Positions 1 through 6,171 of a DNA stretch of 64,000 bases are shown here, piece after piece. Both the position numbers and the translations under genes were made by a program. Source of the stretch: Phreatobacter sp. (GTDB lineage: Bacteria > Pseudomonadota > Alphaproteobacteria > Rhizobiales > Phreatobacteraceae); the NCBI GenBank assembly GCA_019749835.1, contig JAIEPJ010000036.1:1-64000 (forward strand), read 5' to 3'. Positions within the stretch are counted from its first letter, which is position 1. The number at the start of each line of letters is the position of its first letter. The notes below the pieces were generated by a model. It was given only the letters and a program-made list of their open reading frames with translations, searched no databases and was not told the origin of the DNA.

Positions 1-361
1 TGTTGAAGTCGATGGCCGACATGATGCCGTCGCCGAACTCCTCCTCGATGATCGCCTTCCAGGCCGGGCCGTTGACCAGCACCAGCTCGTAGAAGCGATA
101 GATCAGCGGGTCGGTCGGCGGCATCGACGTGCCGGTGCCGCGATAGGGCACCTCGTTCAGCATCCGCTCCTCCATCGGCGTCAGGCCGAAAAGAGCGGCC
201 GCCTTGGCGGCGAGCGGCTTCACCAGTTTGTGCTGGCCCAGCAGCGCGCCGATGATCAGCACCGGCGACATGCCGCCGATCTCGTCGGTGATGTGCTTCC
301 AGGTCCATCCCTTCTCGCGCTTGATGTCGAGAATCTTTTCCGTGAGCTCTTCGCGGATCAT
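1..361 (-). CDS. cynS: Cyanate hydratase (cyanase), 3' end outside window
   Basis: Cyanase converts cyanate and bicarbonate to ammonia and CO2 through carbamate; it is a cytoplasmic decamer. The first 120 codons are present and the C-terminal end runs off the left edge. The helical N-terminal domain (residues 1 to about 75) is followed by the catalytic block [12 protein letters not shown], with the Arg and Glu matching R96 and E99 of the E. coli enzyme. The later [11 protein letters not shown] carries the third catalytic residue, Ser. The ATG at 361 is preceded by an AAGGAG ribosome site 8 bases upstream. It is the last gene of the leftward cyn operon, 34 bp after cynD, so imported cyanate is detoxified to ammonium. 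Identification is firm. Confidence 0.95.
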
Positions 362-395: not shown

Positions 396-1292
396 TCAGA
401 CGGCCCGAACCAGCGGGGGTGGGGTGTCGGGCGTGCCGGGGGTGACGATTGGCGGGGCTCGGCGGTTCCAGACCTTGCCTGGCTGGGCGAGTTCCTCGGC
501 AAAGCTCCGGGAGCGCGCCACCAGGAAGTCGATGATGTGGTTGCGCAGGGGGTAATACGCCGGGTGCTTGTGCACCTCGTTGCGCGAACGGTCAGCCGGC
601 AAAGGATTGGTGACGATCTCGGCGATCCGCGCGTCCGGGCCATTGGTCATCAGCACGATCTTGTCGGCGAGATAGATGGCCTCGTCGACATCGTGGGTGA
701 TCATGAACACGGTCTGGCCGGTATTGCGGCAGATGCCGCGCACTTCGTCCTGCAGCGTGCCGCGCGTCAGGGCGTCGAGGGCCGAGAAGGGTTCGTCCAT
801 CAGCATGATCTTCGGCTCGATCGACAGCGCCCGTGCAATGCCGACGCGTTGCTTCATGCCGCCCGAAAGCTGAGCCGGCTTCTTCATCTCGGCGCCCGTC
901 AGGCCGACCGTCGCGATCGCCTTGCGCGCATGGTCCTCGACCTTGGCCTTCGGCCAGTCGCGCCACTTGGACGAGACCGCATAACTGACATTGCCGAGCA
1001 CGGTCCGCCAGGGCAGGAGGCCATGGCTCTGGAAGATGACGGCACGGTCGAGACTCGGTCCCTCGATGGCCTTGCCGTCGATGATGACTGCCCCCTCGCT
1101 CGGTTCGTCGAGCCCGGCGAGGATGTTGAGCACCGTCGTCTTGCCGCAGCCGGAATGGCCGATGACGCAGACGAACTCGCCGCGCTCCATGGCGAACCAG
1201 AGGTCCTCGAAAATCGTGGTGCGGCCACCCTCGGGGGCGGGAAAGCGGCGGGCGATGCCCTCTATCGAGATGTAGGAACGGGCCATCCGCAT
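396..1292 (-). CDS. cynD: Cyanate/nitrate-type ABC transporter ATP-binding protein
   Basis: This is the ATPase of a NrtD/SsuB/TauB-class importer, which powers cyanate uptake at the inner face of the membrane. The 298-residue product has Walker A GHSGCGKT at residues 45-52, the signature [15 protein letters not shown] and Walker [14 protein letters not shown], followed by a switch His in MITHDVDEA. The C-terminus is a proline-rich tail, longer than the core family. The start at 1292 overlaps the permease stop codon (TGATG), which indicates translational coupling; a second ATG lies two codons downstream at 1286. It sits between the permease and cyanase genes. The family also imports nitrate, taurine and sulfonates, but the adjacent cyanase makes cyanate the likely substrate. 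Confidence 0.9.
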
Positions 1293-2137
1293 CACTCCGG
1301 GTAGGTCACGAGACGGGTGAGGCGTGCGAGGATCTGGTCCAGAACCATGCCGACGAGGCCGATCAGCAGGATGGCCGTGATGATGTCGGTGAGCGACAGG
1401 TTGTTCCACTGGTTCCAGACGAAATAGCCGATGCCGGTACCGCCGACGAGCATCTCGGCCGCGACGATGACCAGCCAGGCGATGCCGACCGAGATGCGCA
1501 TGCCCGTGAGGATGGTGGGGGCCGCCGCCGGCAGGATGACCGTGAAGGCCTTCCGCACAGGCCCGACCTCCAGCGTGCGCGCGACGTTGAGCCAGTCCTT
1601 GCGGACGCTGGCGACGCCGAAGGCCGTATTGATCAGCATCGGCCAGAGCGAGCAGATGAAGATGACGAAGATCGAGGAGAGCGCGGAATCCTTGATCGTG
1701 TAGAGGGCGAGCGGCATCCAGGCGAGGGGCGAGATCGGCTTCATCACCTGAATGAAGGGGTCGAGGGCGCGATAGACGAGGGGTGACATGCCGATCAGGA
1801 AGCCCAGGGGTACGGCGACCGCCACGGCGATGCCGAAGCCGAGGAGCACTCGGGCGAGCGAGTAGGCGAGCTGGATGCCGATCCCCATGTCGTTGGTGCC
1901 GCGCACATAGAACGGGTCGGACATGTGTTTCCAGATCGCCTTGCCGACATCGATCGGCCCCGGCATCGGAGTCTGTCCGCCGGTTGCCGCGGCGGCGCCG
2001 ACCAGCCTCGCATATTCCGGGTCCACCGCCTGGCCGCCACCCCCGCCGCCGCTGACGGCAACGTGCCACGCGGCGAGGAAGATCGCGAGGATCACCAGCG
2101 AGAGGACGAGGGCGCGCACGCCGATGGAGCGGGTCAT
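1292..2137 (-). CDS. cynB: Cyanate/nitrate-type ABC transporter permease
   Basis: Inner-membrane permease of the NrtB/SsuC family (binding-protein-dependent transport, inner membrane component). The 281-residue product begins with a hydrophobic segment (ALVLSLVILAIFLAAW), then a glycine-rich periplasmic stretch, and has about six membrane segments overall. The cytoplasmic EAA-type loop that docks on the ATPase is visible around NVARTLEVGPVRKAFTVILPAAAPTI near the middle to C-terminal half. I chose the ATG at 2137 because the sequence upstream of it lacks family character and would run into the preceding gene. It is transcribed after the DUF1348 gene and overlaps cynD by one base. Cyanate specificity is inferred from cynS. 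Confidence 0.88.
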   Translation of the reverse strand: MTRSIGVRALVLSLVILAIFLAAWHVAVSGGGGGGQAVDPEYARLVGAAAATGGQTPMPGPIDVGKAIWKHMSDPFYVRGTNDMGIGIQLAYSLARVLLGFGIAVAVAVPLGFLIGMSPLVYRALDPFIQVMKPISPLAWMPLALYTIKDSALSSIFVIFICSLWPMLINTAFGVASVRKDWLNVARTLEVGPVRKAFTVILPAAAPTILTGMRISVGIAWLVIVAAEMLVGGTGIGYFVWNQWNNLSLTDIITAILLIGLVGMVLDQILARLTRLVTYPE

Positions 2138-2168: not shown

Positions 2169-2633
2169 TCACAGGCCAAGCTCCGTTAGGCCGGGAAAGC
2201 CGGCCGGGCGGATGCCGAGCGGCCAGGTGAAGCGGCGGTCGGCCTCGGCGATCGGCACGTCGTTGATGCTCGCCTCGCGCCGCTCCATGTAGCCCTCGGC
2301 ATCGAACTGCCACTGTTCGTTGCCGTGCGAGCGGAACCAGGCCCCGCCAGCGTCATGCCATTCGTACTGGAAGCGCACGGCGATCCGGTTCTCGTGGAAG
2401 GCCCAGAGCTCCTTGATCAGCCGGTAGTCGCTTTCCTTGGCCCATTTGGCGGCGAGAAAGCTGCGGATCGCCGGGCGGCCCGCGAAGAATTCCGACCGGT
2501 TCCGCCAGGTGCTGCCCTCGGTATAGGCGAGCGCCACCCGCTCGGGATCGCGGGTGTTCCACGCGTCCTCGGCGGCGCGCACCTTCTGGCGCGCCGTCTC
2601 CAGCGTGAAGGGCGGAACGGGAGGCCGGGTCAT
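2169..2633 (-). CDS. DUF1348 / NTF2-like (SnoaL-fold) protein
   Basis: A 154-residue cytoplasmic protein of the DUF1348 group of the NTF2-like superfamily: cone-shaped alpha+beta domains that can be enzymes or ligand-binding proteins. Recognisable features are the N-terminal [20 protein letters not shown] helix, [37 protein letters not shown] and the ending [16 protein letters not shown]. It has no signal peptide or membrane segment. It lies inside the cyn operon, 23 bp after cynA and 31 bp before cynB, so it is probably co-expressed with cyanate uptake. Its biochemical function is unknown. A role in handling cyanate or carbamate is only an inference from position. Confidence 0.85.
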
Positions 2634-2656: not shown

Positions 2657-4036
2657 TCACCGCCTGATGGCGAAGGAGGCGATGTACTCCTCGGGCTTCG
2701 CCGGATCGAATGGCTTGCCCATGACGGAAAAGGTCTTGGTCGATGTCGACGGTGGCGTGAGGCCGAGTTCCCTCATCATCGCCGCGGCATCGGTCGCCAG
2801 GAACACCTGACGGGTGATGCCGGCATAGTCGATGTCGCCCCGGATCTGGCCCCAGCGCTTCATCTGGGTGAGGATCCACACCGAGAAGCTTTCCCACGGG
2901 AAGGGGTCGAACTGGATGCGGTTCGGGTCGCGTTTCACCTGACCGAGCCCATCGGCATAGGTGCCGGTGAGGATCTGTTCCAGCACCGTGACGGGCTGGT
3001 TGAGGTAGTTCGGGGCAGCGATGGCCGTGGCGATCTCCCTGCGGTTCTCTGCCTTCTGCGCATGGGCGGTGGCGTCGATGATCGCCTTCAGCAGCGCCCG
3101 GTAGGTGTTGGGCATGGTGGTGACGAACTCGCGGCTCGCCGCAAAGGCGCAGCAGGGGTGGCCGTCCCACAATTCCTTCGACAGCAGATGGATGAAGCCG
3201 ACGCCGTCGAAGACCGCGCGCTGGTTGAACGGGTCGGGGCCGAGGAATCCGTCGATATTGTCGGCACGCAGGTTGGCGACCATTTCCGGCGGCGGTACCG
3301 AGCGGATCTGCACGTCGCGGTCGGGATCCAGGCCTGCCTCCGCGAGGTAGTAGCGCAAGAGGTAGTTGTGGATCGAGAAGTCGAAGGGCACGGCGAAGCG
3401 GAAGCCCTTCCAGTCCTTCGGGTCGCGCTTGTCCTTGTGCTTGTTGGCCAGCGTGATGGCCTGGCCATTGATGTTCTCGATGGCCGAGACCGAATAGGGG
3501 ATCGGGTTGGAGCCGACGCCCATGGTGATGGCCAGCGGCATCGGCGCCAGCATGTGGGCGGCGTCATATTCCTTGTTGATGGTCTTGTCGCGGATGACGG
3601 CCCAGCCGGCCGTGCGCACCACCTCCACATTGAGGCCGTGCTTGGAATAGAAACCGAGCGGGTGGGCCATGATGATGGGCGTCGCGCAGGTGATGGGGAT
3701 GAAGCCGACCTTGAGGTCCTTCTTTTCGATCGGGCCGGTCTGGGCGAGGGCCTCGGTCGCGGCGCCAATGGGGAAGAAGGTCGCGATGGCGGCAGCGGCC
3801 GTTGAGGCACCCACAGCCTTGATGAATGCGCGGCGCTGATGGTCCTGGGGAAACAGCGCCCGCATCACCGCCTGTTCGACGATGCGGCGATAGCGGCTTT
3901 CCTCGCCGGCGGCCTCGACGGCGACCGCCTCGGCCTTGATCGCGGCCTCGTGCTCGCCCTCGGAGGCGTGGCGGCCGCAAACGCAGCCCTTGAGGAACTT
4001 CTTGGCGGCATTGAAGGGATTGTCGAACAGAGCCAT
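2657..4036 (-). CDS. cynA: CynA/NrtA-type periplasmic substrate-binding protein, Tat-exported
   Basis: Substrate-binding protein of the nitrate/cyanate/bicarbonate (NrtA/CynA/CmpA) family that delivers anion to CynBD. It is 459 residues long. A Tat-like motif [13 protein letters not shown] appears only near residue 66 and is followed by a hydrophobic stretch and an ALAQ cleavage site near residue 98. About 65 residues therefore precede the signal, including a Cys-x-Cys-Gly-x-His motif (C18, C20, H23). The mature part shows the family pattern [22 protein letters not shown] and later [21 protein letters not shown] lies upstream of the ATG. It is first in the operon, downstream of the sigma-54 promoter. 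Cyanate rather than nitrate is inferred from cynS. Confidence 0.88.
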
Positions 4037-4090
4037 GGGTCGTCCTCAGGGTTCCGGCGTTCGGCGCCTCGGCTTCACTCCCATTTGTTA

Positions 4091-4106
4091 AGCAAGGTTG
4101 GGGCCA
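4091..4106 (-). promoter_or_regulatory. Sigma-54 (-24/-12) promoter of the cyn operon
   Basis: Read on the minus strand, the sequence TGGCCCCAACCTTGCT matches the RpoN consensus TGGCAC-N5-TTGCW. The invariant GG and GC pairs are separated by exactly 10 bases. The expected start point is about position 4080, giving a leader of some 45 bases before cynA. A sigma-54 activator is encoded divergently, as such a promoter needs. Confidence 0.82.
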
Positions 4107-4118
4107 GTGCGCGGGGCC

Positions 4119-4162
4119 GTGCGAAAGCGTGCAGAATGGCGGATTCCTGACGGTTCGCACGC
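4119..4162. promoter_or_regulatory. Inverted repeat, candidate activator-binding site
   Basis: GTGCGAA at 4119-4125 is repeated inverted as TTCGCAC at 4154-4160. Two bases further in on the left, GCGTGC (4127-4132) is mirrored by GCACGC (4157-4162). The array begins 13 bp upstream of the -24 element of the sigma-54 promoter, where an upstream activating sequence for the divergent activator would be expected, though rather close. Binding by that activator is inferred. Confidence 0.45.
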
Positions 4163-4233
4163 CAACGAAAAGTCGTGATTGACGAAAGATCGGGATATGG
4201 AGAACGAATAATCGTGAAACAGGAGCCCCGCGC

Positions 4234-6171
4234 ATGGCCAGTGCCTTAACGTCATCCGCCGCACCGCCCCTTGCCGCGGTGTCGTCCTTCGGACCGTGCT
4301 TTGACAGCCTTTCCGATGCGGCCGTCGTGGTCGACCCACGGTCGGGAGCGATCCGCGATGCCAATCCTGCCGCGCAGCATCTGCTCGGCTATCCGGTCGC
4401 CGTGCTGCGCAGCCTGAAGATCACCGATCTCCACCGTGGCCAGCGTCCCGCCCTCGTCGTCTTCACCGAGGAGGTCCTGCACCGCGGCCGGGCCTTCACC
4501 CGCAGCCTGACGCCGCTGAAGGCCGGCGGCGGCGAGTTGAAGCTGGAATATGCCGGCACCGTCCTGCCGGCCGCCGATGGCCCGCTGGTTCTTCTCACCA
4601 TGGCCGATCTTGCAGCGCGCCATCGTCGCGACGTCGATGCCGATGCTGACGGCACGCTCCGCCAGGGCATCGACGAGTGGAAGCGGGTCGAGCGGCTCTT
4701 CCACACGATCGAGAAGGAGAACCAGCTCATCCTCAAGGCGGCGGGCGAGGGCATCTATGGCGTCAACGCCGACGGCAAGACGACCTTCGTCAATCCGGCC
4801 GCCGAGGCCCTGCTCGGCTGGACGGCCGAGGAACTTGTCGGCAAGGACATGCACTCCCTCGTGCATCACCACCGCGCCGACGGCACCGCCTATCCCAACC
4901 ACGATTGTCCGATCTATGCGGCCTTTCGCAACGGCGCGGTCCAGACCGTGGCGGGCGAGGTGTTCTGGCGCAAGGACGGCACGCCGCTCTGGGTCGAATA
5001 TACCTCGACGCCGATCCGCGAGCGCGGCGCCATCATCGGCGCGGTCATCGTCTTTCGCGACGTGAGCCAGCGCCGCGAGGCCGAGGAGAAACTGCGCCAG
5101 GCCCTCGCCGAGGTCGATACGCTGCGCCAGCGGCTGGAGCGGGAGAATGCCTATCTGCAGGAGGAGATCCGCCTGGAGAGCAACCATCGCGGCATTATCG
5201 GCCGCTCGGCGGCGATCCAGAAAACCCTGCGCCAGATCGACCTCGTCGCCCCGACCGACGCGACGGTCCTGGTCACGGGCGAATCCGGCACCGGCAAGGA
5301 ACTGATAGGTCGCGCCATCCACGAGGCAAGCGCGCGCCGGGACCGGCCGCTGATCCGCGTCAACTGTGCCGCCATCCCGCGCGAACTCTTCGAGAGCGAA
5401 TTCTTCGGCCATGTCCGCGGCGCCTTTACCGGCGCCCTGCGCGACCGTCTCGGCCGTTTCGAACTCGCTGACGGCGGCACGCTGTTCCTCGACGAGGTCG
5501 GAGAGATCCCGCTGGAACTGCAGGGCAAGCTGCTGCGCATCCTGCAGGAGGGCCAGTTCGAACGCGTCGGCGAAGAGCGGACCCGCAGCGTCGATGTCCG
5601 CGTCATCGCCGCGACCAATCGCGATCTCAGGGCCGAGGTGAGGGCAGGGCGCTTCCGGGAGGATCTCTATTTCCGCCTCGACGTCTTTCCCATTCAGTCC
5701 GTGCCGCTGCGCGAGCGGGTCGACGACGTCGCGCCCCTGGCCCTGCATTTCCTCCGCCATGCCGAGCGCAAGCTGAAGACCTCCGGGCTCGGCCTGTCGG
5801 AGGCCGATGTCCGCCGCCTCGCCGGCTATGGCTGGCCTGGCAATGTGCGCGAATTGCAGAACGTCATCGAAAGGGCGGCCATCCTCGCCCGCAATGGCCG
5901 CCTGACGATCGACCTGCCGGGTTCGTCGATCCGCCTACCGGTGCCTGGGCCCCTCGCGCCGGCCGGCCCCGGCGTTCTGACCGAGGAGAATCGCCGGGCC
6001 CGCGACCGTCACAACCTCGTCGCCGCCCTGGAACTGGCGGGAGGCAAGGTATCCGGTCCAGGCGGCGCGGCGGAGCGTCTCGGCCTCCGACCAACCACCT
6101 TCGCCTCGCGGCTCAAGGTTCACGGCCTCGATGCACGCACCTATCGGGACGGGTCCCGTACGATCCGCTGA
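4234..6171 (+). CDS. PAS-domain sigma-54-dependent activator (CynF-like)
   Basis: A 645-residue bacterial enhancer-binding protein that remodels the RpoN holoenzyme to open promoters. A first PAS domain spans about residues 20-125 ([16 protein letters not shown]). A second spans about 165-285 ([15 protein letters not shown]), with an HDCPIY segment common in this class, followed by a coiled coil. The AAA+ domain has Walker A GESGTGKE (349-356), the sigma-54 contact loop GAFTGA (396-401) and [13 protein letters not shown] Fis-type helix-turn-helix ends the protein. The ATG follows AGGAG. It is divergent from the cyn operon, whose promoter is sigma-54 type. A Fis/sigma-54 regulator (CynF) is known beside cynABDS in Pseudomonas pseudoalcaligenes, so the same role is likely here; the inducer is unknown. 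Confidence 0.85.

Follow-up and report, generated by a model that had tools for sequence, protein, structure and literature searches.

Known systems and the locus under study

In Escherichia coli, the cyanase gene of cynTSX is regulated at a sigma-70 promoter by the divergently encoded CynR, a regulator of the LysR type.

Pseudomonas pseudoalcaligenes (now P. oleovorans) CECT5344 carries the gene cluster cynFABDS, in which a putative sigma-54 site precedes cynA and cynF is divergent (PMC6627978). Mutants in cynF lack cyanase, and the system is induced by cyanate and repressed by ammonium (PMC6627978). The main text of that report mentions no inverted repeat, UAS, enhancer or CynF operator, and no published description of a CynF operator was found in the main texts of the open-access literature. 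A comparative study from 2025 placed cyanate lyase among the sigma-54-regulated genes of alpha- and gammaproteobacteria (PMC12316311). Control of a cyanate operon by sigma-54 and CynF is of a kind already known, and what is added here is the probable operator, together with its occurrence at loci of the regulator NitA. The initial annotation of the locus missed both the probable binding sites of the activator and the fact that the arrangement is already described and widespread.

The locus studied here lies in a stretch of 64,000 nucleotides from Phreatobacter sp., referred to as the window. It resembles cynFABDS of CECT5344 in its divergent cynF, its cynA-B-D-S order, its Fis-type sigma-54 regulator and its putative sigma-54 site, whereas it differs in having a DUF1348 gene between cynA and cynB and an intergenic region of 197 bp, against 268 bp in CECT5344. 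CynF of the window is only ~57% identical to Pseudomonas CynF, as measured on other Pseudomonas of the CECT5344 kind (L037, L043, L068). We consider it very likely that the cyn operon of the window is read by sigma-54 polymerase from 4106..4091 and is activated by CynF acting on three palindromes.

Genes of the cyn operon

The following genes were identified on the minus strand:

2657..4036, minus strand: cynA, NMT1/NrtA-like substrate-binding protein (PF13379, E=3e-86)
2169..2630, minus strand: gene of a DUF1348 protein, NTF2/SnoaL-like, lying between cynA and cynB (PF07080, E=6e-65)
1292..2137, minus strand: cynB, ABC permease of the nitrate/cyanate type (PF00528; TIGR01183 above cut-off)
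396..1286, minus strand: cynD, ABC ATPase of the nitrate/cyanate type (TIGR01184 above cut-off)
1..361, minus strand: cynS, cyanase, incomplete at the contig end (PF02560, PF21291; NF002773 above cut-off)

The order is cynA-DUF1348-cynB-cynD-cynS, with gaps of ~5 to 35 bp between the genes. Since the contig begins at window position 1, cynS is cut by the assembly and not by a biological break. The models that CynB and CynD exceed, TIGR01183 and TIGR01184, are nitrate-transporter models, and cyanate is taken as the transported substrate because of the linkage to cynS. In locus L001, as in the window, a DUF1348 gene separates cynA from cynB; in L010, L026, L029, L030, L038, L054, L060, L062, L064 and L065 such a gene follows cynS, on the strand of cynS and a few hundred bp further downstream. 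This repeated company of an NTF2-like gene with the cyn operon suggests that its product may have a role in cyanate metabolism.

The sigma-54 promoter upstream of cynA

The initial annotation had placed a near-consensus sigma-54 promoter, with TGG and GC elements exactly 10 bases apart, 55 bp before cynA and had predicted a transcription start near 4080. The element is present as described:

4091..4106, minus strand: -24/-12 sigma-54 promoter of the cyn operon, TGGCCCCAACCTTGCT (consensus match; position and direction conserved in relatives)

Read from 4106 to 4091, TGGCCCCAACCTTGCT has the form TGG-N10-GC, with one mismatch to the consensus TGGCAC-N5-TTGCW; its -24 part is TGGCC, TGGCA being commoner. 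We counted 54 bases between the element and the ATG of cynA (4036), so that the earlier distance was right within one base, and setting C4092 as -12 gives the same predicted start, ~4080, when computed from the sequence. With its near-consensus flanks, and with RpoN encoded in the same genome (one match, PF04552, E=2.7e-66), the element belongs to the sigma-54 promoter class.

Taken by itself and without comparison, the match is not significant: the window holds four one-mismatch matches to the consensus, and 28 two-mismatch matches were observed against 22.2 expected from shuffled sequence, a count no better than chance. That count would agree with a coincidental -24/-12 match and a cynA read from a different promoter. 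However, a promoter scan of 4030-4240 found no sigma-70-like promoter for either cynA or cynF, and alpha- and gammaproteobacteria alike keep the site in its sequence, place and orientation. A sequence of the form TGG[CT]-N7-[CT][CT]GC points toward cynA or cynS in 65 of 70 cynF loci, where shuffles give 1.9, an approximate expectation as the shuffles preserve base composition only and the loci are related; the same pattern points toward cynF in only 5 of the 70. A coincidence is thus extremely improbable, and it is the conservation across loci, not the number of matches in the window, that makes the sigma-54 site convincing.

CynF, the divergent activator

The gene facing cynA encodes the putative activator:

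4234..6171, plus strand: cynF, PAS-PAS-AAA+ (GAFTGA)-Fis enhancer-binding protein, 645 aa (Pfam Sigma54_activat, PF00158, E=7.3e-72; two PAS regions; ortholog conservation)

The AAA+ domain contains the GAFTGA loop together with Walker A and Walker B motifs, and a Fis-type helix-turn-helix forms the C-terminus. These features identify CynF as a sigma-54 enhancer-binding protein, and the GAFTGA motif is kept in 74 of 75 CynF relatives. The protein is the predicted regulator of cynABDS, given that its gene is divergent from cynA and that it groups with other cynF sequences in the tree. The earlier claim of an intact GAFTGA loop in a divergent activator is therefore correct, and the proposed RpoN control of the cyanate operon gains support, as all the sequence elements named are present, RpoN is encoded and the Pseudomonas ortholog behaves as predicted. 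A family search gave no match to an N-terminal receiver domain in CynF, which has two PAS regions instead, and an NtrC-type response regulator was accordingly rejected as its class.

Within the second PAS domain, His207, His211 and Cys225 (window CynF numbering; window 4852-4908) are invariant in the CynF and NitA relatives examined. These residues form a candidate sensor site, possibly of a metal, heme or reactive-cysteine sensor. A structure search with this domain returned only general PAS sensors with weak E-values, the oxygen/heme sensor DosP among them, and assigned no ligand. One in-frame stop (TAG or TGA) lies inside the match in L099 (G162) and in the cynF relatives of G028 and G429; these three are perhaps pseudogenes or sequence errors.

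A three-palindrome putative enhancer

A repeat search returned three related 15-mers, each centred on ACGA-N4-TCGT:

4165..4176, no strand assigned: proximal candidate CynF enhancer palindrome, ACGAAAAGTCGT (centre ~-90.5; conserved)
4182..4193, no strand assigned: middle candidate CynF enhancer palindrome, ACGAAAGATCGG (one mismatch; centre ~-107.5; conserved)
4204..4215, no strand assigned: distal candidate CynF enhancer palindrome, ACGAATAATCGT (centre ~-129.5; conserved)

The array occupies 4165-4215, with centres 17 and 22 bp apart, and all three positions fall in the range of ~80-150 bp for upstream activating sites of enhancer-binding proteins. Nowhere else in the 4.4 Mb genome do two exact copies stand within 30 bp of each other, as the distal and proximal copies do here. 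We regard the three palindromes as a probable enhancer for CynF. Another inverted repeat in the intergenic region, CGTGCGAA/TTCGCACG at 4118-4125/4154-4161, was rejected as an operator, as it is not conserved even within the genus.

Conservation and specificity of the array

To place the array in a wider context, 80 CynF relatives were taken from one-per-species genomes; divergently upstream of most of them lie cynA-B-D-S, or cynS alone. ACGA-N4-TCGT with at most one mismatch occurs in 188 copies in 71 loci against an approximate expectation of 5.9, and an ordered triplet, each copy having at most two mismatches, was found in 64 of the 71 loci but in none of 1,420 shuffled sequences. The triplet spacings across loci are 21-23 and 17-18 bp (22 and 17 in the window). 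At one mismatch the operator is weak or absent in L036, L050, L057, L065 and L076.

The triplet is also specific for cynF. Searched with a spacing of 22/17 and at most three mismatches, it occurs in 11 of 249 genomes of the order and adjoins cynF in all 11, while none of the 220 genomes of the order without a CynF relative contains it and a reversed-pattern control gave no match in the 249 genomes. By protein search, 29 of the 249 genomes have a CynF relative; the 18 of these without a triplet match may have other spacings, which the fixed 22/17 pattern misses, 21/17 being as common as 22/17 among the loci compared. A search for the exact palindrome pair over the class matched two of 14 cynF genomes, both times beside cynF, and its criterion was too strict. 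Among ten genomes of the genus, all seven that bear cynF have the triplet and the three without cynF also lack it. Three conserved islands stand out when the intergenic region is aligned within the genus: one at the enhancer, one at the -24/-12 element and one at the ribosome-binding region.

These data bear on the possibility that NtrC, the general nitrogen regulator, is what mainly drives the sigma-54 promoter and that CynF plays an accessory part. Such control would suit the repression of the Pseudomonas ortholog by ammonium (PMC6627978), and the sigma-54 activation domain has nine matches in the genome, the strongest being cynF, which leaves up to eight other proteins with this domain. Yet cyanase expression in Pseudomonas requires CynF (PMC6627978), and within the genus no upstream element is conserved other than the palindromes that travel with cynF; we therefore judge a leading role for NtrC improbable.

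The spacing between array and cynA promoter argues further for CynF acting from the palindromes. Depending on the lineage, the proximal site is centred at ~-79 to -81, -90 to -94, -99 to -104, or -115, that is, in steps of ~11-12 bp, which suggests, from few independent lineages, that the array must stay on one helix face. Alternatively, the palindromes could be operators mainly for the gene of CynF itself, with CynF activating the cynA promoter from solution: the array ends only 18 bp before the cynF start codon and must therefore overlap the cynF promoter region. Against this, the array keeps to stepped distances of ~-80 to -115 from the cynA promoter, and palindromes and sigma-54 site stay together in intergenic regions 2-3 times longer as well, so that a mainly autoregulatory function appears quite improbable. 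Activation of cynA from the bound array is the reading adopted below, and the closeness of the array to the cynF start codon suggests that CynF, once bound, probably holds back the expression of cynF too.

Proposed mode of activation

We propose that sigma-54 RNA polymerase transcribes cynA-DUF1348-cynB-cynD-cynS from the -24/-12 element, with a start near 4080. Dimers of CynF would occupy the three ACGA-N4-TCGT palindromes at ~-90 to -130, and a signal received at the PAS domains would cause the CynF AAA+ oligomer to assemble. DNA looping would then bring CynF to the polymerase, where its GAFTGA loop would contact sigma-54 and the promoter would open. The signal would most likely be cyanate or its product, with nitrogen status also acting in some manner. 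As judged from the orthologs, a need for CynF, induction by cyanate and repression by ammonium may be expected in Phreatobacter; the initial annotation had named nitrogen limitation or cyanate, and by analogy both cyanate induction and ammonium repression would apply, rather than one or the other. Control of cyanate use by sigma-54 and CynF reaches from Pseudomonas to many alphaproteobacteria.

NitA and the nit1C cluster

Nine CynF relatives are without cyn genes. In those of the nine loci that were read, the divergent neighbours encode an MSMEG_0572/Sll0783 protein, a Nit6803-type nitrilase, a radical SAM protein and a GNAT protein, a gene content by which we assign the neighbourhood to the nit1C cluster and the regulator to NitA. 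NitA has been described as a Fis-family sigma-54 regulator of the nit1C cyanide/nitrile cluster (PMC11049912). The nine nitA-type sequences form one clade among the CynF sequences with a support of 100, its exact place being unsure given long branches.

NitA resembles CynF as a sister regulator with an equal domain plan, and its loci have palindromes of the CynF type and a sigma-54 site, whereas its target is the nitrilase NitC with its partners and not cyanase. In most nitA loci ACGA-N4-TCGT occurs as exact pairs, and a sigma-54 site points at nitB; the Acinetobacter nitA loci have one-mismatch copies, and no palindromes were seen at nitA locus L055. Most Pseudomonas nitA loci differ from the cyn loci in having two palindromes 23 bp apart and further out (~-150 and -173).

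It can be speculated, tentatively, that CynF and NitA form one enhancer-binding family for cyano compounds with one ACGA-N4-TCGT code (typically three sites on one helix face), that they could act on each other's promoters in strains with both clusters, and that the PAS domain bearing His207/His211/Cys225 is perhaps a shared sensor. An operator common to the cyanate and cyanide regulators would open regulatory cross-talk between these two detoxification routes to direct tests. The palindromes offer a specific operator that simple binding and reporter assays can test, and with which genomes can be searched for targets of CynF and NitA.

Variation among cynF loci

In L017, L024, L025, L028, L042, L045, L071 and L075 (Methylobacteriaceae and some Marinobacter/Pseudomonas), cynF faces cynS directly. 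No cynABD were detected in these loci; the palindromes and the sigma-54 site are kept, often with a leader of 120-165 bp.

A second sigma-54-like element, TGG[CT]-N7-TTG facing cynF, was observed in 20 of 30 gammaproteobacterial loci (an approximate 0.35 expected) and in one of 40 alphaproteobacterial loci. The loci concerned are L035, L036, L037, L042, L043, L045, L047, L049, L051, L053, L058, L059, L061-L064, L066, L068, L074 and L076. The element lies ~33-59 bp upstream of cynF on the plus strand, and in 19 of 20 cases the last C of the -12 GC is replaced by A, G or T; it is possibly a weak or silent sigma-54 site for the control of cynF.
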